NCBI GenBank assembly: GCA_015059945.1
Contig: SUZJ01000008.1
Span: 1 to 64,000 of the forward strand
DNA length: 64,000 nucleotides
From: Rikenellaceae bacterium
Lineage (GTDB): Bacteria; Bacteroidota; Bacteroidia; Bacteroidales; Rikenellaceae
Reading direction: 5' to 3'
The position numbers and the translations under genes were made by a program. The notes below the pieces were generated by a model that did not search any database, was not told where the DNA came from, and was given only the letters and a program-made list of their open reading frames with translations. This document shows, one piece after another, positions 1-64,000 of the stretch. The stretch's first letter is position 1. Every line of letters starts with the position of its first letter.

Positions 1-79
1 GTGCGTTTGCAAGATCCTCGCACGAAGTCAGAGATGTTAGCATCAACATCGGTAGCAAATATCTGAAAATTGCTTTCAT
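1..79 (-). CDS. Lipoprotein, N-terminal fragment (cut by window edge)
   Basis: Read from position 79 on the minus strand, the DNA encodes 26 residues beginning MKAIFRYLLPMLML and reaching a lipobox LTSC at residues 16-19, so this is the export signal of an outer-surface lipoprotein. The rest of the gene lies outside the window. Its ATG is only three bases after the stop of the next gene upstream (83-424), so the two are almost certainly co-transcribed. The function cannot be told from 26 residues. The signal peptide and lipobox are seen directly; that it is a real gene is a strong inference from the tight spacing. Confidence 0.6.
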   Translation of the reverse strand, partial: MKAIFRYLLPMLMLTSLTSCEDLANA

Positions 80-82
80 ACA

Positions 83-424
83 CTATTCTTTTGATTGGTT
101 GTTGTATTCAGTTGCCAAGTTGAGATAGAAATCGTACATGGATTCGCTAACGCCAAGAAAAAGCGCATCTTGTCGCTTAATTGCAAGAACATAGTTGCCA
201 TCTTTCTGTACAATACGGCTCAACATAAACAAATCTAAATCAGACTGTTGTTTACTCTTAATAGAGATACTATCGTCTGGAATTGTAGGAACACTACGAG
301 TCGTTAGCGAATGCAGAGTACGATTCCCCTCTGAACGCTCTACAATGGGAGTATCCAACGTGCTATTAAGACATGATGTCATTAACAACATGATTAAAAA
401 TATTGTAAGTGTTTTGTATTTCAT
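83..424 (-). CDS. Small lipoprotein, function unknown
   Basis: This 113-residue protein starts MKYKTLTIFLIMLLMTSC, a lysine-rich n-region, a hydrophobic stretch and a lipobox (MTSC, Cys18), so it should be lipidated and exported. The mature part is polar and ends with an acidic/aromatic region and NNQSKE. I do not recognise a family. A longer reading frame runs upstream to 511, but its extra residues overlap the end of dnaE and look unlike protein, so the start at 424 before the signal peptide is preferred. It is followed after three bases by a second lipoprotein start. The DNA is AT-richer than the neighbourhood and carries CATG sites, which suggests transfer. Confidence 0.65.
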   Translation of the reverse strand: MKYKTLTIFLIMLLMTSCLNSTLDTPIVERSEGNRTLHSLTTRSVPTIPDDSISIKSKQQSDLDLFMLSRIVQKDGNYVLAIKRQDALFLGVSESMYDFYLNLATEYNNQSKE

Positions 425-449
425 AAATGCAAAGTTTTTTATGCTATTA

Positions 450-3400
450 TCATTTGCCCAGCGAGTAGCGCAGCCCCTTCTCATCGAGCCAGTCGAGCAG
501 CGATTGGTCAACCTTCACCTTCAACTTCTTGGGTAGCAAATCTACTGCCACTTCGTTCTGGGGGTCGCTAAGACGTATGCGCAGGGGTGTGGTGCCCTTC
601 GACTGCTTCATCTTCTTGCTGAAATCTTTCACAAAGGCCTCGTCGAGTTCATCGAGGGTGATGTTCACAAAGACAAACTTTATCAGCTCGTCCTGCATAT
701 CTCCCAGCTGTCCCATCGAGGTTATGCGCACCTCCATCTCCCCTGGTCTATACGCTCTCTCCCTGACGCTACCCCTAATCAGCAGGCAATAATTCTCAAA
801 CAGATAGGGCCTAAACTGCTCGTACTCTTTGCTCCACATCATAAACTCGTACTCGCCCGAGTAGTCCTCCAACACAAAGCGGCCATAGGGTTTGCCATCT
901 TTGGTCATAAGGTTTGTAACCTTGGTGACCATACCTGCAATGGTGAACTCTTGGTCTTTGAGCGTGGTGAGGTTGGCGAACTGGGTGAGCTGGTGAGTGC
1001 AGACCAGCCTCATCACTATCTTGTGGTCATCGAGCGGGTGCGACGAGAGATACATACCCGTCATTTCGCGCTCGCGGGCCAGTGTTTCGAGCTTGCTCCA
1101 TTCGTTTACGATAGGCACCACGGGGCGCTGAACGCTGGTATCGACCTCGCCGCCAAAGAGGCTCTGCTGGGCATTGTTCTTGTCGCTCTGGAACTTCGAG
1201 CCGTAGCGCAGTAGCGCATCCAGATAAGGCAATGCTCCCGGGTCGCGCAGGTCGGTAGCAAAGAGTTTGCTGCGGTGGAAGCCAAGTATCGAGTCGAAGG
1301 CACCTGCCAAGGCCATATTCTCCACACACTTGCGGTTTACGGCTTGGAAGTTTATGCGCTCCATAAAGTCGTAGACATCAACAAATTCGCCCCCTCGTTC
1401 GCGCTCCTCGACGAGCTCCATAACGGCCGCCTCGCCCACTCCCTTTATACCTGCCAGACCAAAGCGAATGTTGCCCTCTTTGTCGGCCGAGAAGGTGTGG
1501 ATACTCTTGTTCACATCGGGGCCCAGAACGCTCAGGCGCATCTTGCGACACTCGTCCATAAAGACCGACAGTTTGTCCATATTCGACAGGTTACGGCTCA
1601 GCAGTGCAGCCATAAACTCGGCGGGATAGTGAGCTTTCAGATAGGCGGTCTGGTAGGCCACATAGGCGTAGCAGGTGGCGTGCGACTTGTTGAAGGCATA
1701 CGATGCAAAAGCCTCCCACTCGCCCCAAATCTTCTCGAGCGTGGGCACATCGTGTCCCCTCTCAACGGCACCCTCAATAAATTTGGGTTTCATCTTGTCC
1801 AGCACCGCTTTCTGCTTCTTACCCATAGCCTTACGCAGCGTATCGGCCTCACCTCCCGTAAAGCCTGCCAGCAGCTGCGAGAGCAACATCACCTGCTCCT
1901 GATAGACGGTAATGCCATAGGTGTCGGCCAAGTACTTCTCCATCTCGGGGAAGTCGTAAGTGATAGCCTCCTTGCCCTGCTTACGGGCAATGAAGTTGGG
2001 GATTTTATCCATTGGGCCGGGGCGGTAGAGGGCGTTCATAGCGATAAGGTCCTCCAAACGTGTGGGTTTAAGTGCGCGCAGGTGCTTTTTCATACCCGGC
2101 GACTCGAACTGGAACACACCCGTAGTGTCGCCACGGCTGAAGAGTTCGTAGGTCTTTTTGTCATCGAGCGGTATGGCGTCGATATCTATCACTCGGCCGG
2201 TTGTGCGCCTTATGTTTTCGAGCGCATCCTTAATAATCGACAATGTTTTGAGCCCCAAGAAGTCCATCTTTATAAGGCCCACACTCTCTACAAACTTGCC
2301 CTCGAACTGCACCACGTTCAGGTCGGCATCTTTGGCCGTAGCAATGGGTGCAAACTTCTCCAAGTCATCTTTGCCGATAATCACACCGCAGGCGTGAACA
2401 CCCGTCTGGCGCACCGAGCCTTCGAGCTTCTCGGCATAGAGCAGCGTGTCGCGAATGGTCTTGTTCTCCGACTCGCGCTCGGCAGCAAACTCGCTCTGCG
2501 TAGCATAGAGCCACTCAAAGGGGGTTTGTCCCTTTTTGTTCTCGATCTTGTCGGGGATTAGTTTGGTGAGTCGGTCGCTCTCCGAGAGGGGCAACTTCTG
2601 CACCCTTGCCACATCCTTAACCGCCATCTTGGGGGCCATAGTACCGAAGGTAACAATCTGAGCCACCCTCTTGCGGCCATACTTTTCGATAACATAGTTG
2701 AGCACGTCGGCCCTACCGTCCTCATCGAAGTCCACATCGACATCGGGCATAGAGATACGGTCGGGATTCAAGAAACGCTCAAACAGCAGGTCGTACTTTA
2801 TGGGGTCGATGTTGGTAATCTTCAAGGCATAGGCCACCACCGAGCCGGCAGCCGAGCCACGGCCCGGGCCTACCGACACACCCAACTCGCGCGCGGCACG
2901 AATGTAGTCCCACACAATGAGGAAGTAGCCTGGGAAGCCCATATTCTCGATTACCGACAGCTCATAGTCGATACGCTTTACGATAGCCTCGTCAATCTGC
3001 TGACCATAGCGCACCTTGGCACCCTCGTAGACCAGGTAGGTGAGGTACTGGAACTGCTTGGCCACCATAAGCCTCTCTTGCACCTCGGGGTGCTCGTCGG
3101 CATAGACATAAATCGACTCGGCAGCCTCAATGGCGCTTTTTTCGGCCTCGTCGGTGCTCTTTTTCAGCACACTTGCTTTGAGCTTCTGCTCATCGAGCTG
3201 CAAGGTTGCGGGCACCTCGAAGTCGGGCATCAGAGGACCTCGGTCGAGCTTGTAGACCTCTACCTTGTCGGCAATCTCCACGGTTGTTTCGAGCGCTTCG
3301 GGATAGTCGGCAAACAGCTCGGCCATCTCGTCGGGACTCTTGAAGTACTCCTCGCCCGTATAGCGCATACGGTTTGGATCGTCGTAGTCTTTGCCCGTAT

Positions 3401-4097
3401 TCAGACAGATAAGGTGGTCGTGGGCATTGGCATCATCTGCATCGGTAAAGTGCACATCGTTTGAGCAGATGTACTTTACACCGTGCTTGCGGGCCAACTC
3501 TACCAACACCTTGTTGGCTATATTTTGTTTTTCGATTACATCACGGGGCCTTGTGGGGTCCTTTGGATTGTGACGCTGCAACTCTAAGTAGTAATCCTCG
3601 CCAAAGAGCCCTTTGTACCACAGCAGCCTCTTCTCGGCCTCCTCCACATCACCATTGAGGATAGCCCTTGGCACCTCGCCTGCAATACAGGCCGAGCAGC
3701 AGATGATACCCTCGTGATACTCTTTGAGTAGTTTGTGGTCAATACGGGCACGCCCATCGAACATACCCTCCGTAAAGCCCAGCGACACGAGTTTTATCAG
3801 GTTGCGATAGCCCTGTTCGTTCTTGGCGAGCAGCACCAGGTGGTATCGCCTCTCCTCTTTTTTGTTGCGGTTTGCGCGGTCGGCCACAATGTAGGTTTCG
3901 CAGCCGAGGATGGGTTTTAGTCCCGCCTTGGTCATAGCATCGTAAAACTCCTTTGCGCCATACATATTACCGTGGTCGGTAATTGCCACAGCGGGCATAC
4001 CATACTCACCCGCACGCTTTACGAGCGACGAGATAGAGGCAGCTCCATCGAGGATTGAGTATTGTGTATGTACGTGTAGATGAACAAATTGTGGCAT
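450..4097 (-). CDS. dnaE: DNA polymerase III alpha subunit DnaE
   Basis: This is the replicative DNA polymerase catalytic subunit, about 1215 residues, the usual size for Bacteroidetes DnaE. An N-terminal PHP domain begins HLHVHTQYSILDGA (residues ~6-20). The polymerase active site has PDVDVDFDEDGR at about 451-462, with the two metal-binding aspartates, and KMDFLGL near 610 supplies the third. A helix-hairpin-helix region and an OB-fold (from ~1045, FTIAGMVTKV) follow. The start at 4097 (MPQFVHLHV) is preferred over one 11 codons upstream because DnaE proteins begin directly with the PHP histidines and a -7 promoter box lies just beyond, at 4128-4135. No unusual residues were seen. Confidence 0.96.
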   Translation of the reverse strand: MPQFVHLHVHTQYSILDGAASISSLVKRAGEYGMPAVAITDHGNMYGAKEFYDAMTKAGLKPILGCETYIVADRANRNKKEERRYHLVLLAKNEQGYRNLIKLVSLGFTEGMFDGRARIDHKLLKEYHEGIICCSACIAGEVPRAILNGDVEEAEKRLLWYKGLFGEDYYLELQRHNPKDPTRPRDVIEKQNIANKVLVELARKHGVKYICSNDVHFTDADDANAHDHLICLNTGKDYDDPNRMRYTGEEYFKSPDEMAELFADYPEALETTVEIADKVEVYKLDRGPLMPDFEVPATLQLDEQKLKASVLKKSTDEAEKSAIEAAESIYVYADEHPEVQERLMVAKQFQYLTYLVYEGAKVRYGQQIDEAIVKRIDYELSVIENMGFPGYFLIVWDYIRAARELGVSVGPGRGSAAGSVVAYALKITNIDPIKYDLLFERFLNPDRISMPDVDVDFDEDGRADVLNYVIEKYGRKRVAQIVTFGTMAPKMAVKDVARVQKLPLSESDRLTKLIPDKIENKKGQTPFEWLYATQSEFAAERESENKTIRDTLLYAEKLEGSVRQTGVHACGVIIGKDDLEKFAPIATAKDADLNVVQFEGKFVESVGLIKMDFLGLKTLSIIKDALENIRRTTGRVIDIDAIPLDDKKTYELFSRGDTTGVFQFESPGMKKHLRALKPTRLEDLIAMNALYRPGPMDKIPNFIARKQGKEAITYDFPEMEKYLADTYGITVYQEQVMLLSQLLAGFTGGEADTLRKAMGKKQKAVLDKMKPKFIEGAVERGHDVPTLEKIWGEWEAFASYAFNKSHATCYAYVAYQTAYLKAHYPAEFMAALLSRNLSNMDKLSVFMDECRKMRLSVLGPDVNKSIHTFSADKEGNIRFGLAGIKGVGEAAVMELVEERERGGEFVDVYDFMERINFQAVNRKCVENMALAGAFDSILGFHRSKLFATDLRDPGALPYLDALLRYGSKFQSDKNNAQQSLFGGEVDTSVQRPVVPIVNEWSKLETLAREREMTGMYLSSHPLDDHKIVMRLVCTHQLTQFANLTTLKDQEFTIAGMVTKVTNLMTKDGKPYGRFVLEDYSGEYEFMMWSKEYEQFRPYLFENYCLLIRGSVRERAYRPGEMEVRITSMGQLGDMQDELIKFVFVNITLDELDEAFVKDFSKKMKQSKGTTPLRIRLSDPQNEVAVDLLPKKLKVKVDQSLLDWLDEKGLRYSLGK

Positions 4098-4127
4098 AGT
4101 GGCGTATAGTTTTAGTCTGTCAGTAGA

Positions 4128-4135
4128 CAAAGATA
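4128..4135 (-). promoter_or_regulatory. -7 promoter box for dnaE
   Basis: On the minus strand this reads TATCTTTG, matching the Bacteroidetes TAnnTTTG box. It would start transcription about 25 nt before the dnaE ATG at 4097. No good -33 TTTG is at the ideal distance; a CAA lies 23 bp upstream. Confidence 0.5.
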
Positions 4136-4160
4136 CGTTATATTATTCGGATAAAAAACA

Positions 4161-4188
4161 ATTTTGAATTTGGAATTCTGAATTTTGA
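4161..4188. repeat. Heptamer array, unit ATTTTGA, 4 copies
   Basis: Four consecutive 7-bp units of the form ATTyTGA/ATTTGGA run up to two bases before the mnmA stop codon (4190-4192). It is one of many period-7 arrays in this window; see findings. Confidence 0.7.
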
Positions 4189-4189
4189 T

Positions 4190-5383
4190 TTATTTATCAA
4201 TCACGCCCGAGCCAACCAGCTCGTCGCCATCATACCAAGCGGCAAATTGACCTGCGGTGATACCCCTCTGGGGCTCGTCAAACAACAGGTAAGCCCCTTG
4301 CTCACGACGGTAGAGGGTTGCCCCTTGCAAGGGTTGGCGGTAACGTATGCGGGCCGAGTAGCGACGGGGCTCCTCATCAACCCCCTGCGCCAAGTCCTCT
4401 CTTACCCAGTGAATCTCCTCGGGCCTGATGCTCAACGCCCTACGCAGCAAACCCGGGTGGTTGTGGCCCTGACCAACGTAGACAATATTGCGCACCACGT
4501 CGGTTGCAATCACAAACAGGGGCAGAGCGGTACCGCCCACACCCAGGCCGTGACGCTGACCAATGGTATAGAAGTGAGCTCCGCTGTGAGTACCCACCTT
4601 GCGTCCATCGGCGGGCTCGTAGGTATAGGGGGTTGCAAGCTGTTGCAAATCGGCCTTGGCGACAAGTTCGGCCTCCTGCTCGGCAGTGCGATACCCCTCC
4701 CAATCGGCCGCAATCTCTATGATACGCCCCTTCTTGGCAGCGAGTTTCTGCTGCAAAAATACGGGCAGGTCTACCTTGCCCACAAAGCAGATGCCCTGCG
4801 AGTCTTTGCGCTTGGCGGTGGCCAGATGTTGCTCTTCGGCAATGGCCCTCACCTCGGGTTTGAGCATATCGCCTACGGGGAAGAGTGCGCGCGAGAGCTG
4901 CTCCTGGCTGAGCTGACAGAGGAAGTAGCTCTGGTCTTTGTTGCCATCGCTGCCTGCCAGCAGTCGGTGGGTGCCATCGGCCCTGTGCTCCACACGGCAA
5001 TAGTGGCCCGTAGCTACCCAGTCGGCCCCCAGTTTGAGCGCCTCTTTCAGAAAGACGTCAAACTTTATCTCTCGGTTACACAACACATCAGGATTTGGGG
5101 TGCGCCCTTTTTCGTACTCGGCAAACATATAGTCCACCACCCTCTGGCGGTACTGCTCGCTGAGGTCTACCATACGGAAGGGTATGTCGAGCCTTTTGGC
5201 CACCAGCTCGGCAAACAGACGGTCATCCTCCCAGGGACATTCGCCACTGAGAGTGCCCACCGTATCGTGCCAATTGACCATAAAGAGGCCCACCACGTCG
5301 TAGCCCTGCTGTTTCAGCAACCAGGCGGCCACCGACGAGTCTACACCTCCCGAGAGGCCTACCACTACTCGCTCTTTTTTCAT
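4190..5383 (-). CDS. mnmA: tRNA-uridine 2-sulfurtransferase MnmA
   Basis: MnmA makes 2-thiouridine at the wobble position 34 of tRNA-Lys, -Glu and -Gln, taking sulfur from a persulfide relay. The 397-residue protein has the ATP-pyrophosphatase P-loop SGGVDSS at residues 11-17. The nucleophile is Cys102 in NPDVLCNRE and the second catalytic cysteine is Cys199 in GICFVGK. The C-terminal beta-barrel follows, with the YTIGQRHGLGV motif. All catalytic residues are present and the length is typical. It lies downstream of its own -7 box (5414-5421) in a divergent arrangement with a membrane protein gene. Confidence 0.96.
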   Translation of the reverse strand: MKKERVVVGLSGGVDSSVAAWLLKQQGYDVVGLFMVNWHDTVGTLSGECPWEDDRLFAELVAKRLDIPFRMVDLSEQYRQRVVDYMFAEYEKGRTPNPDVLCNREIKFDVFLKEALKLGADWVATGHYCRVEHRADGTHRLLAGSDGNKDQSYFLCQLSQEQLSRALFPVGDMLKPEVRAIAEEQHLATAKRKDSQGICFVGKVDLPVFLQQKLAAKKGRIIEIAADWEGYRTAEQEAELVAKADLQQLATPYTYEPADGRKVGTHSGAHFYTIGQRHGLGVGGTALPLFVIATDVVRNIVYVGQGHNHPGLLRRALSIRPEEIHWVREDLAQGVDEEPRRYSARIRYRQPLQGATLYRREQGAYLLFDEPQRGITAGQFAAWYDGDELVGSGVIDK

Positions 5384-5413
5384 ACTCTTTGGAGTGCTTT
5401 GAAATTATTTCGA

Positions 5414-5421
5414 CAAATATA
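5414..5421 (-). promoter_or_regulatory. -7 promoter box for mnmA
   Basis: The minus strand reads TATATTTG, about 30 bp before the mnmA ATG. It sits 24 bp from an oppositely oriented box for the gene at 5526. No clear -33 element was seen. Confidence 0.45.
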
Positions 5422-5445
5422 CAACAATTCTTCTGAAAAAGTGTT

Positions 5446-5453
5446 TACCTTTG
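5446..5453 (+). promoter_or_regulatory. -7 promoter box for the YqaA-type gene
   Basis: TACCTTTG matches TAnnTTTG. Transcription would begin near 5460, giving a leader of about 65 nt that contains a short hairpin (TACCC, loop TATT, GGGTA at 5465-5478). Confidence 0.45.
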
Positions 5454-5525
5454 CAGCGACATTTTACCCTATTGGGTAATTATCAGGTTAGCAGTTAAGT
5501 AGTAACGAAAATAAAAGATTTAACT

Positions 5526-6161
5526 ATGACAGATAATACAACCACCGCACAGCCACAGGAGAAGAAACCAGGCATTGTGCGTCGCCTTTATGATTGGATG
5601 CTTTCGTGGGCCGAGAGCAAATGGGGTGCCGTTGCGCTCTTTCTGTTTGCTATGTGCGAGAGTATCTTCTTTCCCGTACCCCCCGATGTGCTGCTCATTG
5701 CACTCTGTATCGGCTGCGTGAGCAAGTCGTTCAAGTACGCAGCCATTTGTACTGCGGGCTCGGTACTTGGTGCCATTGTGGGCTTTGGCTTGGGTGCCTT
5801 CTGCTGGGAGTTGGTAGACAGTTGGTTTATCCCTTCGATTTTCTCGCAAGAGGCCTTTGACAATGTGGGCCTCAAATACTCGGAGTGGAACTTCTGGCTG
5901 GTATTCACCGCGGGCTTTACCCCCATACCCTATAAGCTGATTACCATCTCGGCTGGCGTATTCTTGGGTGTTGCCGACTTTTGGATTTTCATCATTGCCT
6001 CGTTGGTGAGCCGTGGTGCAAGGTTTGTGCTGGTTGCAGGCCTCATCTACAAGTTTGGCGCTCCAATCAAGAAGTTCATCGACAAGTACTTCAACCTCTG
6101 CGCACTGGCCTTTACGGTGCTGCTCATTGGCGGCTTTGTGCTGATAAAATACGTTCTGTAA
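5526..6161 (+). CDS. YqaA/DedA-type (SNARE-associated/VTT) inner-membrane protein
   Basis: This 211-residue integral membrane protein has a short charged N-terminus and several hydrophobic segments. FPVPPDVLLIA at about residues 50-60 is the re-entrant proline/acidic motif typical of the DedA superfamily. A second conserved part, TAGFTPIPYKLITI, lies near 135-148. Such proteins are thought to scramble or transport lipid carriers and support envelope homeostasis; the YqaA branch has no settled substrate. It is a single-gene unit followed at once by a perfect bidirectional terminator. The family call is firm and the role is general. Confidence 0.85.
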   Translation: MTDNTTTAQPQEKKPGIVRRLYDWMLSWAESKWGAVALFLFAMCESIFFPVPPDVLLIALCIGCVSKSFKYAAICTAGSVLGAIVGFGLGAFCWELVDSWFIPSIFSQEAFDNVGLKYSEWNFWLVFTAGFTPIPYKLITISAGVFLGVADFWIFIIASLVSRGARFVLVAGLIYKFGAPIKKFIDKYFNLCALAFTVLLIGGFVLIKYVL

Positions 6162-6184
6162 AGACGTCTAATGCTTAACGACAC

Positions 6185-6220
6185 AAAAAAGGCTTTTAGC
6201 GGTTGCTAAAAGCCTTTTTT
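6185..6220. terminator. Bidirectional rho-independent terminator
   Basis: A perfect 16-bp stem (arm AAAAAAGGCTTTTAGC) with a GGTT loop ends in T-runs on both strands. It separates the convergent YqaA-type gene and aroE. Confidence 0.93.
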
Positions 6221-6234
6221 ATTTGATTATCAGA

Positions 6235-6978: not shown

Positions 6979-6995
6979 ATCTTAAATTTTGAATT

Positions 6996-8720: not shown

Positions 8721-8751
8721 TTGACACCCACGCCAAAAAACGCTATTTTTG
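8721..8751 (+). promoter_or_regulatory. Promoter for feoAB
   Basis: TTG (8721-8723) and TATTTTTG (8744-8751) are 20 bp apart, matching the Bacteroidetes consensus. The leader to the ATG at 8799 would be about 40 nt. No iron-regulator box was identified with confidence. Confidence 0.75.
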
Positions 8752-8798
8752 TACCCTCAAAAATAGACCACAACCAAGGAATTTTACTCCTCTCATAT

Positions 8799-11180
8799 AT
8801 GAAATTATCGGAACTCAGGGAAGGGCAGTCGGCAGTGATTGTAAAAGTAGCGGGCCACGGTGGTTTTCGCAAGCGCATTATGGAGATGGGCTTTGTGCGA
8901 GGCCAGCAGGTGCGCACTGTGCTCGATTCGCCCCTCAAAGACCCCGTAAAATATACCGTTATGGGCTACAACGTGTCGCTGCGTCGTGCCGAGGCCGCTA
9001 TGATTGAGGTACTGCCCCCAAGCGAGGCCGACAAGCTCCACACCGAGCCTGTGAGCACCTTTGGTTGCTCGACCTCGTGCGACAGCTGCACCATAGCCTC
9101 GTGTGGCCGCAAGGTGGGCTCAACCCTACGTCGCAACGAGATAAACGTGGCTCTGGTGGGCAACCCCAACAGTGGCAAGACATCGCTCTTCAACGCCCTT
9201 TCGGGCAGCAGCGAGCACGTGGGCAATTACAGTGGCGTAACCGTCGATGCCAAGTTTGGCAAGCTCAACTATCGCGGCTACCGCATCAACCTCACCGACC
9301 TGCCCGGCACCTACTCGCTCTCGGCCTACACCCCCGAGGAGGTCTATGTGCGCGAACACCTCTACGAGAAGATGCCCGACGTGATTATCAATGCCGTAGT
9401 GGCCTCGAACCTCGAGCGCAACCTCTACCTGACGAGCGAACTGATTGACCTCAACCAACGTACCGTAGTGGCACTGAATATGTACGACGAGTTGGAGCGC
9501 AGCGGTGCCAAGTTTGACTATGCCCAGATGGGTGCAATGGTGGGCATACCCTTTATACCTACCATCGCCAAGAGCGGCTACGGCTTGGAGGAGCTGCTCG
9601 ACACCGTCATCGAGCTCCTCGAGGGGCGCAACAAGGTGGCTCGCCACGTTCATATCAACTACGGCCCACAGATGGAGGAGGTCATACGCCAACTCTCTGA
9701 CCAGTTGCGCGAGGCAGATGACGTGCCACGCCAATTCCCCATTCGCTACTGGGCAGCCAAACTGATCGAGGGCGACAAAGAGGCAGAGCGCATACTCTCT
9801 GGCTGCAAAGATTTCGACAAGTGGCACCAAATGGCCCGCCAATCGGCCGAGCGCATAGAGCGCGAACTGAAAAACGATGTCGAGAGCATCATCAGCGACT
9901 ACAAGTATGGCTTCATTGCGGGTGCTTTGGAGGAGACCTTGAGCGAGGGGGGCGTGGACATAAACCTGCGCTCGCGTCGCATCGACCGCCTTGTGGCCAA
10001 CAAGTGGCTCGGCTTCCCGATATTTATCCTGCTGGTGTGGCTTATGTTCTACGCCACCTACGCCTTGGGCTCCTATCCGCAGGGGTGGATCGAGAGCGGC
10101 TTTGGTCTGCTGGGCGAGTGGCTGTGGGGCCTGATGCCCGACGGAGCCCTGCGCGACCTGGTCGTAAACGGCATAATCGGTGGCGTGGGCAGCGTGGCAG
10201 TATTCCTGCCTAACATACTGATACTCTATCTGTTCATATCGCTTATGGAAGATAGCGGCTATATGGCTCGCGCAGCCTTCATTATGGACAGGCTTATGCA
10301 CCGAATGGGCCTACACGGCAAGTCGTTCATACCGCTCATTATGGGCTTCGGTTGCAACGTGCCCGCCATTATGGCTACGCGCACCATCGAGAGCCACAGC
10401 AGCCGACTTATTACCATACTGGTTACACCCTTTATGTCGTGTAGCGCACGCCTGCCCGTATTCTTGCTGCTGGCCGGCACCTTCTTCCCGCGCCACGCCG
10501 CAACGGTGCTGATTGCACTCTACCTGCTGGGCATATTGGTGGCCTTCGCTACGGCCCGACTGCTGCGCCGCACCAAGTTCAAGAGGGATGAAACCCCATT
10601 TGTTATGGAGCTGCCCCCCTACCGCTGGCCCACCGCCAAGATGACCCTGCGACACATGTGGGACAAGTGCGCACAGTATATCAAAAAGATTGGTACGACC
10701 ATACTGCTGGCCACGGTGGTCATCTGGTTTTTCAGCTACTACCCCCGCCCCGAGGTGAGCGAGGTGGCTGCCGAGGTTGCTACGACCGAGAGCGTTGCTT
10801 CGACCACCAACGACAACTCGTATATGGCTCGCATAGGCCACTTCATCGAGCCCGCAATGCGCCCTCTGGGACTCGATTGGAGAGCAGGTATGGCTCTGGT
10901 GACCAGCATCCCTGCAAAGGAGTTGGTCGTAAGCACAATGGCTGTGCTCTATGGTGGCGACGACATAGCCTCGCTGTCGGACAACATACTCACCCAGAGC
11001 AATATGACTCCCTCGTCGGCCATAGCCTTTATGGTCTTTATACTGCTCTTCTTCCCCTGCATTGCTACCCTTTCGACGGTGCGTAGCGAGACTGGCAGTC
11101 GTGGGTGGATGTGGTTTACGATTATCTACAATACCGGCATTGCGTGGCTGTTGGCTTGGCTGGCCCACCTTATATTTTAA
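8799..11180 (+). CDS. feoB: Fused FeoA-FeoB ferrous iron transporter
   Basis: This 793-residue protein imports Fe(II) across the inner membrane. Residues 1-75 are an SH3-like FeoA domain (MKLSELREGQSAVIVKVAG). A cysteine-rich linker (Cys90, 94, 97, 102) follows. The G-domain comes next, with G1 GNPNSGKTS (121-129), G2 around GVTVD and G3 DLPG (167-170). The C-terminal half is the FeoB membrane domain with two gate regions. The start at 8799 is chosen because FeoA domains begin MKLSEL and the promoter -7 box ends at 8751. FeoA-FeoB fusions are usual in Bacteroidetes. Confidence 0.95.
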   Translation: MKLSELREGQSAVIVKVAGHGGFRKRIMEMGFVRGQQVRTVLDSPLKDPVKYTVMGYNVSLRRAEAAMIEVLPPSEADKLHTEPVSTFGCSTSCDSCTIASCGRKVGSTLRRNEINVALVGNPNSGKTSLFNALSGSSEHVGNYSGVTVDAKFGKLNYRGYRINLTDLPGTYSLSAYTPEEVYVREHLYEKMPDVIINAVVASNLERNLYLTSELIDLNQRTVVALNMYDELERSGAKFDYAQMGAMVGIPFIPTIAKSGYGLEELLDTVIELLEGRNKVARHVHINYGPQMEEVIRQLSDQLREADDVPRQFPIRYWAAKLIEGDKEAERILSGCKDFDKWHQMARQSAERIERELKNDVESIISDYKYGFIAGALEETLSEGGVDINLRSRRIDRLVANKWLGFPIFILLVWLMFYATYALGSYPQGWIESGFGLLGEWLWGLMPDGALRDLVVNGIIGGVGSVAVFLPNILILYLFISLMEDSGYMARAAFIMDRLMHRMGLHGKSFIPLIMGFGCNVPAIMATRTIESHSSRLITILVTPFMSCSARLPVFLLLAGTFFPRHAATVLIALYLLGILVAFATARLLRRTKFKRDETPFVMELPPYRWPTAKMTLRHMWDKCAQYIKKIGTTILLATVVIWFFSYYPRPEVSEVAAEVATTESVASTTNDNSYMARIGHFIEPAMRPLGLDWRAGMALVTSIPAKELVVSTMAVLYGGDDIASLSDNILTQSNMTPSSAIAFMVFILLFFPCIATLSTVRSETGSRGWMWFTIIYNTGIAWLLAWLAHLIF

Positions 11181-44927: not shown

Positions 44928-45149
44928 TACCCGCATAGATTCCATTAAGATTTGCGAAACTCAACACTTAAAAAATTGAGAGTTACTCGTAGTATCAAAA
45001 ACAGGCCTAGGTGACCCCGCAAGGGGGAGTGTCCGAAGGTAACCCTTTCCGATGCCGTTGGACGTTTGCGATGCAAATACGGAGCTCTCACATATGACGA
45101 TTCGGTAGTTTCGTCAAACAATTCATGGAACTCTATGTGGGATTTTTTT
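44928..45149 (+). ncRNA. ssrS: Probable 6S RNA (Bacteroidales type)
   Basis: The RNA would run about 220 nt. A closing stem pairs 44930-44945 (CCCGCATAGATTCCAT) with 45125-45141 over 16 bp with one bulge and one G-U, and a T-run follows at 45144-45149. Inside are CCCC-GCAA-GGGG, ACTCAA/TTGAGAGT, TTTGC-GAT-GCAAA and TGACGA/TCGTCA hairpins. Its place between zapA and rny, its length and the long closing stem fit 6S RNA, which mimics an open promoter and binds RNA polymerase. No primary-sequence consensus was checked. It contains a rare CATG (45124-45127). Confidence 0.65.
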
Positions 45150-56695: not shown

Positions 56696-56720
56696 GGGTT
56701 GAAAGTCAAACGTCTATTGA

Positions 56721-56915: not shown

Positions 56916-57094
56916 AGTTGTAATCTTTTTTTTGTTATTATTTTTCGTGTTTTGTCTTTTTTAGGTGGTGCCTTTTGCAGTTCTACAAGGCCCCTGGCCC
57001 TTAGCTCTGCCCCCAAGCACCTGCGGGGTGGCTACATATGTGTTGTTATCAAATACTCTCGACGGGGTTGTACTGAGGGGCACACGCGCATAAA

Positions 57095-58180
57095 CTACTC
57101 ATTGTCAGCCGGAAACCTCAAATAAGGGATAATTCTTGCGGCCTCGTCTGCGCTCAATATGTCGTCTGCCAAAAATTCCTCAGCGTTACTCCAACCTCCT
57201 TTCAATTGTCGATGTTTGATAATCTTTCTAACCCTCGATGGCGTCATATACGGATGACGAGCCAACTCTTTTGGGGCCACAAAGTTAATATCAATTTTTT
57301 GAATTTTGCAACTGTCGCACCAAATTTCTTTCTCAAAGAGCTCATAATTCTTGGGTTGCACCACCGCAAGGTCAAAGAGTTGGCGTGTCGAGTGGTAGCC
57401 TCCGAGCCTTTGGCGGTAGAGCAGAATGTCGTGGGCCGTAGCGGGGCCTATACCCCTGATGCTCACCAGCGTAAGCGAGTCGGCCGAGTTAAGGTCGATG
57501 AGTACTTTTTCGGGCTCGGGCAGGGGCGAGAGGGTTATATATTCGCTCATCTCGGCGTAGAGTGCCTCGCCAATCAGATAGCAGTCGCGGAATTGCAGCA
57601 GCGAGCCAAAGCCACCTATGCGGGTGCGATACTCGACCAACGCCTCGGCTTGGCGGGCGGTAAAGCAGCCCAACTCGTAGAACCCCTCGGCATCGAGCAC
57701 ATTGGGGTCGAACATCACCTTGCGGAATACTCGCTCGCGAGGGGCAAAGCGTGTCGAGTCGGCCTGCGAAGTTGCACTATGAGAGTAGTGGGCCGAAGGT
57801 TTAATCTTAAACTCGTCGGCAATGGCAATGTAGGGTTTTAGCTCGGCATAGAGCGAGTCGCTAAGGCCGTAGACTATGGCCACATCTTCGGGGATGGAGT
57901 AGCGGCGACCACCCTGACGGTACTTGACGATGTTGCGGGCCACAAACTTGTCGATACCCATAGCTCTCAGCTGCTCGAAAGTGACAGTATTGGGATCGAA
58001 CTTTTCGAGTCGGAGCACGGGGCCTTTATCCTTGGCAACCAACAGAGAGTCAGCAGCTTCAATATGGAGCACATCGTTCTTGGAGGGTGTCCTGAAAGCC
58101 TCTACCGCAATCCATACCAACACCACAAAAAATGGCAGCAAAAATGCCAAAGCTCTTATTTCTCGCCTACCGAAAATCAT
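57095..58180 (-). CDS. ComEA-like helix-hairpin-helix membrane protein
   Basis: The 361-residue protein has one N-terminal membrane segment (~10-28). Three helix-hairpin-helix units follow: FDPNTVTFEQLRAMGI, FDPNVLDAEGFYELGC and DLNSADSLTLVSIRGIGP. A fourth, weaker region is at the C-terminus (NFVAPKELARHPY). Such proteins bind double-stranded DNA at the cell surface, in some bacteria during uptake. The start at 58180 (MIFGRREIR) is favoured over 58216 because a -7 box (58201-58208) would place transcription start between them. No competence genes are nearby. Confidence 0.75.
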   Translation of the reverse strand: MIFGRREIRALAFLLPFFVVLVWIAVEAFRTPSKNDVLHIEAADSLLVAKDKGPVLRLEKFDPNTVTFEQLRAMGIDKFVARNIVKYRQGGRRYSIPEDVAIVYGLSDSLYAELKPYIAIADEFKIKPSAHYSHSATSQADSTRFAPRERVFRKVMFDPNVLDAEGFYELGCFTARQAEALVEYRTRIGGFGSLLQFRDCYLIGEALYAEMSEYITLSPLPEPEKVLIDLNSADSLTLVSIRGIGPATAHDILLYRQRLGGYHSTRQLFDLAVVQPKNYELFEKEIWCDSCKIQKIDINFVAPKELARHPYMTPSRVRKIIKHRQLKGGWSNAEEFLADDILSADEAARIIPYLRFPADNE

Positions 58181-58200
58181 ACCTGCGAATAATTGTTTTG

Positions 58201-58208
58201 CAAAAGTA
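58201..58208 (-). promoter_or_regulatory. -7 promoter box for the ComEA-like gene
   Basis: The minus strand reads TACTTTTG. Transcription near 58195 would start downstream of the alternative ATG at 58216, supporting the start at 58180. Confidence 0.5.
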
Positions 58209-58252
58209 GAAAACATTCTCGAAAAAATGAGAGCTATTTGATTAGAATTTAG

Positions 58253-58260
58253 TATATTTG
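58253..58260 (+). promoter_or_regulatory. -7 promoter box for mutA-mutB
   Basis: TATATTTG gives a leader of about 52 nt to the ATG at 58319. The -33 is not at the ideal distance. No cobalamin riboswitch is visible in the leader. Confidence 0.5.
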
Positions 58261-58276
58261 CGACGCTTAAAAGTAT

Positions 58277-58297
58277 GACTTACGACTAACAACTAAC
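58277..58297. repeat. Heptamer array in the mutA leader, 3 units
   Basis: GACTTAC, GACTAAC and AACTAAC lie within the transcribed leader, 20-40 bp before the ATG. Confidence 0.55.
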
Positions 58298-58318
58298 TAT
58301 AAATTCACAATTAAAGTT

Positions 58319-60172
58319 ATGGCAAACAACAAGTATGAAAGGTTGTTTGATGAGTTCCCAGCAGTCTCGACCGAGGCTTGGGAGGCTGTCATCAACACCG
58401 ACCTCAAAGGTGCCGACTACCAGAAAAAGCTGGTTTGGCGCACAGCAGAGGGCTTTAATGTCCGCCCCTACTACCGTGCAGAGGACCTGGCAAATGTGCA
58501 GTTCCTCGGTGCATCGGCAGGTGAGTTCCCCTATGTTCGTGGTGTAAAGAACTGCAACAAGTGGAAAGTATTCCAGACCATTTGCGTGAACGATGCAGCC
58601 GAGGCTAACGCAAAGGCTCTCCGCGCAATCGAAAGCGGTGTGTGCAGCGTTGGCTTCCACATCGAAAACGAGCTCTCCGCAGAGCAAGTAAATGTTCTGT
58701 TGGCAGGTATCGACCCCACCAAAAACGAGGTTGTATTCTGCTCGGAGAACGAGTGGTGGATTGTTGAGCCCGTGATGGCTTGGGCCGCACAGTTCAGCAA
58801 AGAGGACACCCGCATCGCGTTCAACTTCGACCCCATTATGTGGGGCCTTTCGGCCTACGGCACCTTCTGCTGCGGTTGCGACAAGGGCACTCCCTGCTTC
58901 GAGAAACTCGCAGGCTACATCAAGGAGTATGCCGAGTGGAAACACGTTCGCTTTGTGGGCGTTGATGGCTCGCTGCTGGGCAACAGTGGCTCGACCATCG
59001 TTGAGGAGTTGGGTTATATGCTGGCCGCAGGCCACGACTACGTGGTTAGGCTTATGGAGCAGGGCGTGAGCGCAACTGCTGCCGCAAAGAGCATCCGCTT
59101 CACCACCTCGATTACCTCGAACTACTTTATGGAGATTGCAAAACTCCGTGCAGCACGTATGCTGTGGGCCAACATCGTTAGCGCCTACGAGCCCGAGTGC
59201 AAGTGTGCCGAGAAGATCTACCTCCACGCTGTTACCTCGATGTGGAACCAGACCGTCTACGATTCCTATGTGAATATGCTCCGCGGTACCACCGAGGCTA
59301 TGAGTGCCGCCATCGCAGGTGTACACTCGCTGGAGGTTCGTCCCTTCAACAACGCCTACGCTTGTGGCGACGAGTTCGCAGAGCGCATCGCTCGCAACGT
59401 GCAGCTCTTGCTCAAGAACGAGGCCCACTTCGACAACGTGGTGGACCCCGCAGGTGGCTCCTACTACATCGAGAACCTCACCGCAAGCATCGCACAGGAG
59501 GCTTGGAAACTCTTCCTCGAGGTTGAGAACGATGGTGGCTACATTGAGTCCTACGAGAAGGGCACCATCGCTGCAAGGGTGAACGCTTCGGCCGAGAAGA
59601 AGAACAAAGAGGTGGCTACCCGCCGCATCACCCTGCTTGGTACCAACCAGTTCCCCAACTTCGGCGAGACTCTTGGTGCCGACGTTAAGGCTTGGAAGTT
59701 TGACAACACCTGCTGCGAGGCCAAATTCCCCGCACTGAAGCCCTACCGTGGTGGCGAGGCATTTGAGGCTATGCGTCAGGCCGTTGATTTGAGTGGCAAG
59801 GCTCCTAAGGCATTTATGCTCACTTGTGGCAACCTGGCTATGGCAAGGGCAAGGGCTCAGTTCAGCTGCAACTTCTTTGCTTGCGCAGGCATCAAGGTAC
59901 AGGACAACACCTTCTTTGCTTCGGTTGAGGAGGGCGTTAAGGCTGCCAAAGAGGCCAAGGCCGAGATTGTTGTTGTATGCTCGTCGGACGACGACTATGC
60001 AACTCTGGCACCCGAGGTTGCAAAACTCATTGGCGACGAGGCTATCGTAGTAGTAGCCGGTGCACCCGCTTGCGCCGAGGAGCTCAAAGCACAGGGCATC
60101 ACCCACTTTATCAGCGTAAGGGACAACGTATTGGAGACCTTGGCTGCTTACCTTAAAGAGTTGGGAATTTAA
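58319..60172 (+). CDS. mutA: Methylmalonyl-CoA mutase small (beta) subunit
   Basis: MutA pairs with MutB to interconvert succinyl-CoA and (R)-methylmalonyl-CoA, the entry to propionate in Bacteroidales. The 617-residue protein keeps the TIM-barrel layout, but its C-terminal cobalamin fold lacks the DxHxxG motif. That part reads EIVVVCSSDDDYATLAPEV, as expected for the non-catalytic subunit. mutB begins 18 bp after the stop. Codon choice looks more biased than in neighbouring genes, fitting strong expression. Confidence 0.95.
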   Translation: MANNKYERLFDEFPAVSTEAWEAVINTDLKGADYQKKLVWRTAEGFNVRPYYRAEDLANVQFLGASAGEFPYVRGVKNCNKWKVFQTICVNDAAEANAKALRAIESGVCSVGFHIENELSAEQVNVLLAGIDPTKNEVVFCSENEWWIVEPVMAWAAQFSKEDTRIAFNFDPIMWGLSAYGTFCCGCDKGTPCFEKLAGYIKEYAEWKHVRFVGVDGSLLGNSGSTIVEELGYMLAAGHDYVVRLMEQGVSATAAAKSIRFTTSITSNYFMEIAKLRAARMLWANIVSAYEPECKCAEKIYLHAVTSMWNQTVYDSYVNMLRGTTEAMSAAIAGVHSLEVRPFNNAYACGDEFAERIARNVQLLLKNEAHFDNVVDPAGGSYYIENLTASIAQEAWKLFLEVENDGGYIESYEKGTIAARVNASAEKKNKEVATRRITLLGTNQFPNFGETLGADVKAWKFDNTCCEAKFPALKPYRGGEAFEAMRQAVDLSGKAPKAFMLTCGNLAMARARAQFSCNFFACAGIKVQDNTFFASVEEGVKAAKEAKAEIVVVCSSDDDYATLAPEVAKLIGDEAIVVVAGAPACAEELKAQGITHFISVRDNVLETLAAYLKELGI

Positions 60173-60190
60173 TCATCAGGAGGAAGAATT

Positions 60191-62323
60191 ATGAGAGCAC
60201 AGTTTACAGATATTAAATTTGCTGGCGCAGCCGAGGGTTGCTGCCAGAAACAGTGCGCCACTGCCGAGAAGGAGTGGATGACAGCCGAGCAGATTCCCGT
60301 TAAAGGCCTCTACAACGCAGAGGACTTGGAGGGTATGGAGCACCTGAACTATGCAGCAGGTGTGGCTCCCTTCTTGCGTGGCCCCTACAGCACTATGTAC
60401 GTTATGCGTCCCTGGACTATTCGCCAGTACGCAGGTTTCTCGACCGCCGAGGAGAGTAACGCATTCTACCGCCGTAACTTGGCTTCGGGCCAGAAAGGTC
60501 TGTCGGTAGCATTCGACTTGGCTACTCACCGTGGCTACGATGCCGACCACCCCAGGGTTGTGGGCGACGTAGGTAAAGCAGGTGTGAGCATCTGCTCGGT
60601 AGAGGATATGAAAGTTCTGTTCGACGGTATTCCACTGAACCAGATGTCGGTGTCGATGACCATGAACGGTGCAGTACTGCCCGTATTGGCATTCTACATC
60701 GTAGCAGGTTTGGAGCAGGGTTGCACCCTCGACCAGCTGGCCGGTACTATCCAGAACGATATCTTGAAAGAGTTTATGGTGCGTAACACCTATATCTATC
60801 CACCAGAATTCTCGATGCGTATCATTGCCGACATCTTTGAGTACACCTCGAAGAATATGCCCAAGTTCAACTCGATTTCTATCTCGGGTTACCACATGCA
60901 GGAGGCAGGTGCTACCGCCGACATCGAGTTGGCTTACACCTTGGCCGACGGTTTGGAGTACCTCCGCGCAGGTGTAAACGCAGGTATGAGCATCGACCAG
61001 TTTGCTCCCCGTCTGTCGTTCTTCTGGGCAGTTGGTATGAACCACTTTATGGAGATTGCCAAGATGAGGGCTGCACGTCTTCTGTGGGCCAAGATTGTTA
61101 AACAGTTCAACCCCAAGAACCCCAAATCGCTGGCTCTGCGTACTCACTGCCAGACTTCGGGTTGGTCGCTCACCGAGCAGGATCCTTTCAACAACGTAGG
61201 CCGTACCGCTATCGAGGCTATGGGCGCAGCTCTGGGCCACACCCAGTCGCTCCACACCAACGCACTCGACGAGGCTATCGCACTGCCTACCGACTTCTCG
61301 GCTCGTATTGCTCGTAACACCCAGATCTACATCCAGGAGGAGACCAACGTATGCCGCTCGGTTGATCCCTGGGCAGGTTCGTACTATGTAGAGAGCCTGA
61401 CCAACGAGATTGCTCACAAGGCTTGGGAGCACATCCAGGAGATCGAGAAACTTGGTGGTATGGCCAAAGCTATCGAGACCGGTATTCCAAAGATGCGTAT
61501 TGAGGAGGCTTCGGCCCGCAAACAGGCTCACATCGACTCGGGCGAGGAGATTATCGTAGGTCTGAACCGCTACCGCTTGGAGAAAGAGGCTCCTATCGAC
61601 ATCTTGGCTGTTGACAACACCGCTGTACGCGAGAGCCAGGTTAAACGTCTGAAAGAGCTCCGCGCAAACCGCGATGAGGCTGCCGTACAGAAAGCTCTGG
61701 CCGCTATTACCGAGGCTGTTAAGACCAAGACCGGCAACCTGCTGGAGCTGGCTGTCGAGGCTGCCAAAGTTAGGGCTACCTTAGGCGAGATTTCGGACGC
61801 TTGCGAGGTTGTCGTAGGTCGTTACAAAGCAGTTATTCGTTCAATCTCTGGTGTATATTCGAGCGCAATGAAAAACGATAGCGATTTTGCAAAAGCAAAA
61901 GATATGGTTGCCGAGTTCGCAAAACGCGAGGGCCGTCAGCCACGTATTATGATTGCCAAACTTGGTCAGGATGGTCACGACCGTGGTGCTAAGGTTGTAG
62001 CTACCGGTTATGCCGACCTGGGCTTCGACGTAGATATGGGTCCCTTGTTCCAGACTCCCGAGGAGGCTGCAAAACAGGCAGTGGAGAACGACGTTCACGT
62101 TGTAGGTGTATCGTCGCTGGCTGCTGGTCACTTGACCTTGGTGCCCCAGATTATCGCTGAGTTGGCCAAACTGGGCCGCGAGGATATCGTGGTAGTAGTA
62201 GGTGGTGTAATTCCTGCACAGGATTACGACCAGCTCTATAAAGATGGCGCTGCTGCTATCTTTGGCCCCGGTACTCCCGTTGCAACCGCTGCAATCAAGA
62301 TGTTGGAGATTCTGAGCGAGTAA
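60191..62323 (+). CDS. mutB: Methylmalonyl-CoA mutase large (alpha) subunit
   Basis: The catalytic, adenosylcobalamin-binding subunit, 710 residues. The TIM barrel carries TQKG-like substrate motifs and [19 protein letters not shown]. The C-terminal B12 domain has [13 protein letters not shown] (His ~597), the lower ligand of cobalt. Translation is likely coupled to mutA (18-bp gap). MeaB for loading is encoded at 6996-8105. The gene holds two of the rare CATG sites (60661 and 60895). A strong terminator follows at 62381. Confidence 0.96.
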
Positions 62324-62380
62324 TAACAACTTGCCACCGAAAGCCGCCACGTTGCCAGTGGGCAAGGTGAGAGGCTGTTG

Positions 62381-62420
62381 AAAAGAGGAGCCGCACCGAT
62401 TAGGGTGCGGCTCCTCTTTT
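62381..62420 (+). terminator. mutB terminator
   Basis: A perfect 17-bp stem (GAGGAGCCGCACC plus flanking A/T) with a 6-nt loop is followed by a run of T. Confidence 0.92.
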
Positions 62421-62444
62421 TTTGTCGACCGATAACCAACAAAG

Positions 62445-62534
62445 TCATTAAGGACTTTAAGGGCCTTAAAGAAAATCCTATAACTCCTATTTCTCTTATA
62501 GGATTTATAGGAGTAATAGGAGATATAGGACTGA
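62445..62534. repeat. Nonamer array, 10 units
   Basis: Ten 9-bp units in register: TCATTAAGG, ACTTTAAGG, GCCTTAAAG, then CTCCTA, CTCTTA and TAGGAnnnn types. It matches 46896-46994 in order. The following DNA to 62587 shows no gene. Confidence 0.88.
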
Positions 62535-62587
62535 TAACTGGTAACCCTTTCTCGGTGAGGGTGGAAGAACCTCAATAAATATCCAAA

Positions 62588-62602
62588 GTGGCGTTACGCC
62601 AC
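62588..62602. repeat. Short hairpin downstream of the porin gene
   Basis: GTGGCG-TTA-CGCCAC is a perfect 6-bp hairpin about 38 bp beyond the porin stop. Confidence 0.5.
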
Positions 62603-62639
62603 CCGAAAGGGGCAGTCCGAACGGCCGAGCCCAAAGCAC

Positions 62640-64000
62640 CTAAAACAGCAGTGTATAGGTGGCGGTGAAGGTGTTGCGGCGGAGTTTATTATTCTTAATC
62701 TCGGGGCTCTGTACCAGTATAGGGTCGCTACCTTCGGCCACGTTATCGGTGTAGTACTGGTAGAGGTAGTGGTTGGTATAGTTGGCCGTTGAGTTAATCC
62801 ACGCCACGTCGAGCATCGAGCCGCCCGCAAAGCGCCAGCCGAGGCCCAGCGAGTAGTTCTCGGTGGTGGTCTTGTAGTTGCCGTAGAAGGGTTTATCCTC
62901 CTTAACCAGCTCGGTCACCTCGTCGTTGAAGGGGCTGCCGTAGAGTGCGTAGCCGCCACGCAGGTAGAGGCGCGAGAGGGGGCGCATTTCGAGGCCCACG
63001 CGCAGGTTGTTAGCCTTACCGAGGTCGAGGTCTACCGACCTGTTCATAGCCTCGTTTATGTTGGTATAGCCAGTGTGGAACGAGATATTGTCGTACCAAA
63101 CCATATCGTAATCGACCGACAGCAGGGCCTTCTCGCCGAGCTGTACCGAGGCACCCAGCAGCAGTTTGTTGGGCGACGAGTAGTTGAGTCCGAACGAGTT
63201 GATGAGCGACTCGGCACCGTAGGCATCGCCATTGCCAAAGAGGGTATACATCGAGGTCTGGTAGTCGCGAATAATCTCCACCGAGGTAGAGGTGTGGTAG
63301 GCCACGCCAAAGCGCACAGCGGGAATGGGGCGCAGGATTGCACCAATCTTGAAGTTGATGCCCGAGCCATAGGTACTAACCTGTGGGGTGTAGCTCATAT
63401 AGCGAAGCACTGCGGCATCGTTTGACTCGGGGGTGTAGGTCTCGGCATACTTGTAATCCAACGAGTGCGAGATGTCCTGAATACCGATGGTTGCTCCCAC
63501 GTATAGTATGTTGGCAAAGTTCATACCGCCCGAGAAGGTGTACTCACCCACCGAGCCACGACTGCGGGCTACCATATGGGGATTGATAGACATATCCAGA
63601 GGTATGCTGGGCACAACGTACGAGGTATTGTTGTCGGCATCAACCACAGGGTCAATCAGATAGGTCTGATAGGCCAACACACCACCCCACTCATCGACGT
63701 TGATGTCGTTGTTGCGGAAGGGGTCGTTGTTGGTGCCAATCCACGACTCGGGCACACCCCACATCTGCTCGGCAAAGAACTCGCCAATGGTAACATTGTC
63801 GCCACTCCACGAGTAGTTCTGCACATAGTTCAGGTCGGCCAACTTGTTGTAGGCAAAGCCGAAGGTAAAGCTGGCCAGAGAGCCCGAGCCCTGATAGAGG
63901 TTGAGCGCCAAGCCCACCTGGTTGAACGCAAAGTCGGTGTCGGTGCTACCTGCTGCATTGTAGGCATTGGTTGTACGAGCCTTGTTAAAGCCAGCCGAAA
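62640..64000 (-). CDS. FadL/OMPP1-type outer-membrane transport protein, 5' end outside the window
   Basis: About 453 codons are present with no start; the frame is open to position 64000 (AGFNKARTTNAYNAAGSTD at the edge). A GTG at 63917 is internal, not the true start. The protein is strand-rich with alternating hydrophobic residues and ends in FTATYTLLF, a typical outer-membrane C-terminus. It carries YTFSGGMNFANILYVGATIG and YHTSTSVEIIRDY, as in FadL-type (hemin receptor-like) channels of Bacteroidetes that move hydrophobic molecules. The substrate is unknown. Confidence 0.78.
   Translation of the reverse strand, partial: SAGFNKARTTNAYNAAGSTDTDFAFNQVGLALNLYQGSGSLASFTFGFAYNKLADLNYVQNYSWSGDNVTIGEFFAEQMWGVPESWIGTNNDPFRNNDINVDEWGGVLAYQTYLIDPVVDADNNTSYVVPSIPLDMSINPHMVARSRGSVGEYTFSGGMNFANILYVGATIGIQDISHSLDYKYAETYTPESNDAAVLRYMSYTPQVSTYGSGINFKIGAILRPIPAVRFGVAYHTSTSVEIIRDYQTSMYTLFGNGDAYGAESLINSFGLNYSSPNKLLLGASVQLGEKALLSVDYDMVWYDNISFHTGYTNINEAMNRSVDLDLGKANNLRVGLEMRPLSRLYLRGGYALYGSPFNDEVTELVKEDKPFYGNYKTTTENYSLGLGWRFAGGSMLDVAWINSTANYTNHYLYQYYTDNVAEGSDPILVQSPEIKNNKLRRNTFTATYTLLF

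Follow-up and report, generated by a model that had tools for sequence, protein, structure and literature searches.

Near-absence of CATG from a Rikenellaceae genome and its likely tie to an NlaIII/IceA-family restriction-modification module

The avoidance of restriction sites in prokaryotic genomes is reportedly the subject of work by Karlin et al. in 1992 and by Gelfand and Koonin in 1997. In the available excerpts of Rusinov et al. 2015 (PMC4687349), the sites of orthodox Type II systems are described as avoided, with cutting at incompletely methylated self sites given as the usual explanation. The closest described systems to the case considered here are those of NlaIII and IceA; iceA1 and NlaIII share 52% identity according to the accessible part of PMC2749054, and the iceA system is described as a CATG system in the accessible part of PMC10423294. 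That same portion of text presents the CATG methyltransferase as universal in Helicobacter pylori and the endonuclease as facultative, with CATG being the densest motif and the frequency of the endonuclease having no significant link to CATG density. As H. pylori is CATG-rich despite the system, possession of an NlaIII/IceA-family system is not in itself enough to bring about a purge of the site.

We analyzed a stretch of 64,000 nucleotides (here, the window), which spans positions 1-64000 on contig 6 of a Rikenellaceae genome of 1.81 Mb, rated 93% complete (G000). The best named relatives of one protein from this genome are from metagenome-assembled genomes (MAGs) of Alistipes and of Tidjanibacter, a genus of the same family by name look-up, many of them named from herbivore cecum, colon, or rectum. 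The window (1..64000) is a core-genome stretch, with no tRNA and no Rfam match at the gathering score, and is almost devoid of two tetramers, possessing seven CATG and a single CTAG. An exact recount of CATG reproduces the positions given in a preliminary description of this DNA, namely, 137, 372, 389, 10655, 45124, 60661, and 60895, three of which fall within the first 400 bp. Its estimate of about 240 sites by chance is likewise close to the 247 that we obtain from base composition and the 212 from a maximal-order Markov model, the observed/expected ratio (O/E) being 0.033 by the latter. The deficit is also seen in a larger sample of the genome comprising the window and 19 other stretches (433,225 bp; 24% of the genome), where 67 CATG are observed against 1434 expected, giving a density of about 155 per Mb and a Karlin-type ratio of 0.078.

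In 45 predicted genes, which reflect our own greedy choice of open reading frames (ORFs) and cover 56,169 bp of the window, CATG occurs only 3 times, whereas permutation of synonymous codons within genes gives 187.8 ± 9.2 (200 shuffles, with a minimum of 165). All three codon frames are depleted, with 0, 0, and 3 sites against 7.4, 13.2, and 167.3 in the shuffled genes. The codons TAC, ATC, GGC, CGC, AAC, GAC, and TTC, though common elsewhere in these genes, never precede Met; their T-ending partners do occur in that position, and CAC does so twice. These counts confirm the earlier remark that Met codons are almost never preceded by C, T-ending codons being used instead, and the per-frame shuffle bears out the view that what is avoided is the tetramer itself rather than particular codons. 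CATG is under-represented beyond both composition and codon usage, the pattern by which restriction-site avoidance is recognized. Of the checks that had been suggested, comparison with a Markov model and with codon-shuffled genes both leave the depletion standing in the window.

A depletion confined to a particular sequence and present throughout the genome sample could, in principle, arise from a mutation or repair bias that destroys CATG, e.g., through deamination or very-short-patch-type repair. The gene dnaE, compared between CATG-poor and CATG-rich genomes, speaks against this by the way in which each frame has been emptied. The frame CAT-G is vacated via its T (CAT-G 4 versus CAC-G 152 in CATG-poor genomes; 20 versus 61 in CATG-rich ones), the frame xCA-TG via its A (0/482 in CATG-poor versus 9/209 in CATG-rich genomes), and the frame xxC-ATG via its C. 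In the last case, T-ending two-fold codons in pairs of CATG-poor genomes are C-ending in the partner in 4983 of 11087 comparisons elsewhere and in 0 of 592 comparisons before a conserved Met; in CATG-rich genomes, 22 of 28 are C-ending before Met (these pairs are not independent). A single chemical change would leave CATG in place wherever the base concerned cannot change silently, and it would hardly allow members of one genus to differ in CATG between almost 0 and about 1. Because each frame is emptied via a different silent base, the data argue for selection on the word itself; we rejected a mutational cause on these frame-specific exits and regard it as highly improbable.

The few sites that survive in the window are unevenly placed. 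Those at 137..140, 372..375, and 389..392 lie in a putative small AT-rich lipoprotein-like gene at the contig end (83..423, minus strand; listed as ORF 83-511 and read from an internal ATG), which is perhaps of foreign origin. The site at 10655..10658 occupies the codon-before-Met frame of ORF 8721-11180 (+), whereas that at 45124..45127 falls outside the predicted genes. The remaining two, at 60661..60664 (ACC ATG) and 60895..60898 (CAC ATG), are in ORF 60191-62323 (+), downstream of a methylmalonyl-CoA mutase ORF (58319-60172); this ORF retains both despite possible synonymous escape. In the own-genome sample, 28 residual CATG fall in 4 bins with a GC content below 0.47 and 37 in 81 other bins, and the low-GC stretches enriched in them look like recent acquisitions. 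A longer recognition word found no support, all ten flank classes being present among 115 residual CATG pooled over CATG-poor stretches. The occurrence of every class indicates that the tetramer itself seems to be avoided; relative to CATG-rich stretches, the flanks shift, with ACATGT up threefold, CCATGC down to about half, and GCATGC down to a third. The survival of only a few sites might also be read in terms of the second possibility raised in the preliminary description, a regulatory meaning of the site; on this view, CATG would be a regulatory or marker word whose scarcity lets the few remaining copies be read. Neither the spread of the residual sites, concentrated as they are in low-GC stretches, nor the diversity of their flanks lends this any support, and a congener (G007) has 228 CATG in 40 kb; we give this reading almost no credence.

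CATG is accompanied by other rare palindromes. In the window, CTAG is rarer still (1/140, observed/expected by the Markov model), followed by GATC (26/198) and CCGG (60/202), and the other 12 of the 16 palindromic tetramers have O/E values of 0.65-1.16. In the own-genome sample, the corresponding counts are 32/934 for CTAG, 254/1353 for GATC, and 465/1290 for CCGG, with Karlin-type ratios of 0.035, 0.247, and 0.487, respectively, and the two rarest tetramers of the genome are CTAG and CATG. Hence, the earlier remark that GATC looks uncommon, with a few dozen occurrences, was sound, but it overlooked the rarer CTAG and many other avoided palindromes. The median O/E is 0.43 for the 48 palindromic hexamers that contain none of the four main tetramers versus 1.02 for random other hexamers, and among those depleted in this genome are TTTAAA (2/71), AACGTT (5/65), CTRYAG (75/346), and CTYRAG (200/789). 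Furthermore, 54 of the 58 family genomes with a measurement are low in CTAG ("low" throughout being O/E < 0.25, a limit of our own choosing). The hexamers and the family-wide rarity of CTAG could suggest a general avoidance of palindromes with no CATG-specific cause. This would predict a similar depletion across palindromic tetramers, which is not found given the range of the 12 in the window, and different members of the family are without different words, e.g., GCGC (0/48 in G074), AGCT (1/44 in G095), CGCG (1/87 in G114), and GGCC (1/59 in G066), in a survey of stretches of 5 kb or more. We therefore consider general palindrome avoidance alone to be very unlikely. As to the outcome named beforehand as telling against a CATG-specific effect, equal depletion of tetramers of the same type, we found most of them unaffected, but CATG does share its rarity with CTAG, GATC, and CCGG.

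Several further observations concern these words. ACGT is absent from four relatives, G005 (0/33), G026 (0/53), G027 (0/28), and G038 (0/54), in stretches L137, L016, L017, and L028, respectively. A more distant Bacteroidales MAG, UBA1754 (L085), is without an ICEA match and has O/E values of 0.08 for CATG, 0.05 for GATC, and 0.16 for CCGG. In the own genome, a C5 methyltransferase gene is truncated by the end of contig 11 (L264:1417-2430); that it targets CCGG would be a guess.

A fitting enzyme for CATG is encoded in the same genome, on a contig other than that of the window. The cluster at G000:C8:78375-82016 includes a full-length match to the ICEA family (PF05315) at C8:79179-79844, within the enzyme gene at C8:79176-79856, recovered in the own-genome profile search with the complete profile (1-218/218; E 3.6e-112, 372.9 bits) and at 373.4 bits in a second scan. 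By family matches, this restriction endonuclease (REase) gene is directly preceded by an N6_N4-type methyltransferase (C8:78375-79172) and followed by a D12 methyltransferase (C8:81009-82016), with one gene between the latter two (C8:79866-81005) that combines a weak EVE-domain match (0.00014, just under the cut-off) with weak similarity to a NucS-like nuclease in its end part. The clustered DNA methyltransferase by which an NlaIII/IceA module is recognized is represented here by two genes. The D12 protein carries the FAGTG and DPPY motifs. In the REase, an HNH-like stretch (DHKDG) is almost invariant over 10 copies, with D115, H116, N145, and K148 invariant; this stretch is presumably the HNH site and these residues the catalytic ones. 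Given that the NlaIII/IceA family reads CATG, family membership suggests that the enzyme would cut CATG and that the module would methylate CATG in its own genome.

The module shows features of a mobile unit. The GC content of the 10 copies is 0.32-0.46, against 0.45-0.55 in the host stretches (0.36 versus 0.54 for the own copy), the neighboring genes differ among the four genomes inspected, and the own D12 enzyme is 92% identical to two copies from another genus versus 90% to that of a congener. Hence, the module looks to have moved recently, and the present copy may be younger than the CATG purge itself. The gene with EVE and NucS-like domains recurs inside the module in 3 of the 10 copies (L002:352-1491, L132:4864-6009, and L154:147-1274), and its product is perhaps a modification-dependent nuclease acting as a backup to the module. 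In another stretch (L091:1-18000), itself without CATG, a phage terminase, an S24-type repressor, and a muramidase adjoin the module. The terminase of this prophage-like stretch matches 39 viral contigs at 30 to 47% identity, which is too distant for an inference on CATG avoidance in the phages of this host; three of these contigs have CATG at 11/18, 39/53, and 12/19 (observed/expected). Searches for ICEA homologues gave no match in a phage collection, none that was confirmed in viral contigs, and one partial match among plasmids, from Priestia. Among solved structures, none related to the D12 enzyme was found, and the REase had only two chance-level matches.

The other of the two rarest tetramers has a comparable candidate. 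MjaI is presumed to cut CTAG, and contig 12 of the genome (L103:11248-13221) encodes an MjaI-family enzyme (PF09568, 4.1e-29) adjoining an N6_N4 methyltransferase; with the ICEA module also present, each of the two rarest tetramers has a fitting module, the cognate relation to CTAG being suggested by family membership. M.MjaI and M.BfaI are listed as homologues of a CTAG 4mC methyltransferase in the available part of PMC5867850. This second module lies in a low-GC stretch together with a saccharopine dehydrogenase and an astacin-type peptidase. The link between it and the rarity of CTAG is weak, because CTAG is low almost everywhere that it was measured in the family: it is low in 6 of 6 MjaI carriers and in 48 of 52 non-carriers, i.e., there is no association.

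For CATG, an association across the family is seen. The ICEA gene occurs in 10 of 268 family genomes, and all 10 carriers are low in CATG versus 17 of 55 non-carriers (p 4.7e-5, a statistic that ignores relatedness), the latter not being strictly two-state, as values between 0.3 and 0.8 also occur. This comparison started from 73 genomes, from which 8 with under 5 kb and, for each motif, those with <10 expected sites were dropped, and used 65 genomes for CATG and GATC and 58 for CTAG. The stretches were mixed, comprising random 20-kb pieces, enzyme contigs away from the enzyme, dnaE loci, and, for G000, the window; the carriers without a measurement are G285 (DpnII) and G202 and G247 (MjaI). 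A DpnII-family gene occurs in 18 of 268 genomes, and GATC is low in 15 of 17 measured carriers versus 13 of 48 non-carriers (p 2.2e-5, again ignoring relatedness), the two exceptions being G004 (0.38) and G219 (0.78), in which the gene runs into the contig end. Pooled CATG values differ little with DpnII, at 0.51 in carriers and 0.62 in non-carriers. Carriers of ICEA, however, have less GATC as well (pooled 0.20, versus 0.56 in non-carriers), so that they stand in part for a group that avoids palindromes in general. In the own genome, a search for DpnII-family genes found none, though GATC is at 0.19 there.

The proposal in the preliminary description of a nuclease of NlaIII-like specificity thus gains support from both sides: the search that it advised for a CATG-type endonuclease or methyltransferase gene yields a full-length family enzyme with two methyltransferases, and the comparison with related genomes finds every carrier CATG-poor in the stretches measured, along with poor relatives in which no enzyme is detectable. 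We consider it very likely that the CATG desert represents restriction-site avoidance tied to this Type II NlaIII/IceA-family restriction-modification module. In such a scenario, whenever the methyltransferase lags, as upon module loss or enzyme dilution, unmethylated chromosomal CATG would be cut, and over many generations selection would swap CATG for synonymous or neutral neighbors; the MjaI-family module in the same genome would be the counterpart for CTAG. Self-cutting as the selective force, and with it the exact cleavage specificity and the methylation of the host, is what we infer from the family to which the module belongs.

The situation within the genus is more complex. In the dnaE loci of 22 of its 23 genomes (G002, a mere fragment, was left out of the dnaE analyses), CATG has an O/E of <0.2 in 13, 0.29 in G010, and 0.82-1.34 in eight, i.e., it is mostly either low or normal; the value of 0.18 for the own genome reflects the inclusion of the three contig-end sites. 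Only 3 of the 14 CATG-poor or intermediate congeners possess an ICEA gene. In particular, six CATG-poor species (G005, G274, G276, G009, G275, and G270) form a sub-clade in whose genomes profile searches found neither an ICEA gene nor a D12 methyltransferase, and CATG is still kept out of them: in dnaE, T-to-C exchange at two-fold codons amounts to 972/2330 elsewhere versus 0/154 before a conserved Met, in a comparison of one gene with pairs that are not independent (G269 was left out for its wrong reading frame and branch length of 10).

One possibility is that another agent, either an unrecognized CATG nuclease or a system, strain-variable or plasmid-borne, that these bins lack, keeps CATG out of many relatives and perhaps did so originally in the present genome. 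The emptiness of the sub-clade before Met points this way, as does G005, which is rated 99% complete and yields no match in searches for D12, N6_N4, C5, and N6_Mtase families, so that incompleteness alone is an unlikely reason for its missing enzyme. Conversely, the other five genomes are drafts of 59-85% completeness, and binning readily drops mobile modules of low GC content; an N6_N4 match is present in G009 and N6_Mtase matches in G276 and, weakly, G275; the searches spanned four methyltransferase and three restriction-enzyme families, with C5 covered for G005 and G009 within the sub-clade; and a fitting enzyme is present in G000 itself. We regard such an agent as possible but doubtful; it is compatible with the module-based explanation, and the two are not exclusive. 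Avoidance of the G005 type may reflect a plasmid-borne, a strain-variable, or an unrecognized system. A more specific and rather unlikely version is that the sub-clade actively purges CATG (and G005 also CTAG, GATC, and ACGT) via an unrecognized site-reading restriction agent, which might possibly need no methyltransferase, as the chromosome is purged of its target word.

Alternatively, the avoidance in enzyme-less relatives could be the waning signature of modules that disappeared in the distant past, and traces of lost systems are reported as common in the excerpts of PMC4687349. The decay of avoidance after loss of a system is consistent with the intermediate state of G010 and with G273, which falls inside the CATG-poor clade (the seven-species group having 99/99 support) and in which CATG has returned to 0.82 in the dnaE locus (L236) and to 0.58 in another 6 kb (L203), with C before Met at many shared positions of dnaE. 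The sub-clade of six is not consistent with it: at about 42% T-to-C exchange elsewhere, a mere trace should have refilled, and since not one of 154 comparisons before Met shows this, modules would need to have been lost recently and more than once. We consider this account improbable for these relatives and retain restriction-site avoidance linked to the NlaIII/IceA-family module as the preferred explanation for the genome described here.

So understood, the case belongs to a familiar phenomenon, restriction-site avoidance, in an unusually strong form. Both this phenomenon, with the traces that it leaves in relatives, and the NlaIII family have been described before; what stands out is the extremity of the purge, together with one real puzzle, the CATG-poor sub-clade in which no enzyme was found. 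A literature search of partial coverage brought up no title that deals with such a purge in this clade. The purge is nearly complete, is borne by core genes, and changes within one genus, and the relatives show that such purges are gained, kept, and lost, sometimes with no visible enzyme. Thus, the clade offers a natural experiment on the strength of self-restriction, on the rate at which a lost word returns, and on the prediction of unseen defense systems from purged words, and it is relevant to the choice of DNA for transfer into these bacteria.

In comparison with known systems, the module resembles NlaIII and IceA1-HpyI in having a full-length PF05315 REase clustered with a D12 methyltransferase, and its extra methyltransferase gene before the REase recalls the gene set of Campylobacter jejuni ST-677, as given in the accessible part of PMC4687069. 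It differs from them in its host, whose CATG density contrasts with the 9036 per Mb stated for H. pylori in the available text of PMC10423294, in the EVE and NucS-like gene of some copies, and in having its specificity assigned by family. The second module is like the CTAG systems MjaI, BfaI, and MthZI in the pairing of a PF09568 REase with an N6_N4-type methyltransferase, and unlike them in that CTAG is low across the family nearly irrespective of the module. The DpnII-type systems of the family likewise go with low GATC in their carriers, whereas the own genome is poor in GATC with no such gene found on search. Finally, as in the restriction-site avoidance described in the excerpts of PMC4687349, a host palindrome is under-represented, also in relatives without the system; the difference lies in degree, the Karlin-type ratios of CATG and CTAG being far below the reporting limit of 0.78 used there, and in the division of a single genus into 13 of 22 genomes below 0.2, 8 of 22 at 0.82 or above, and one between.
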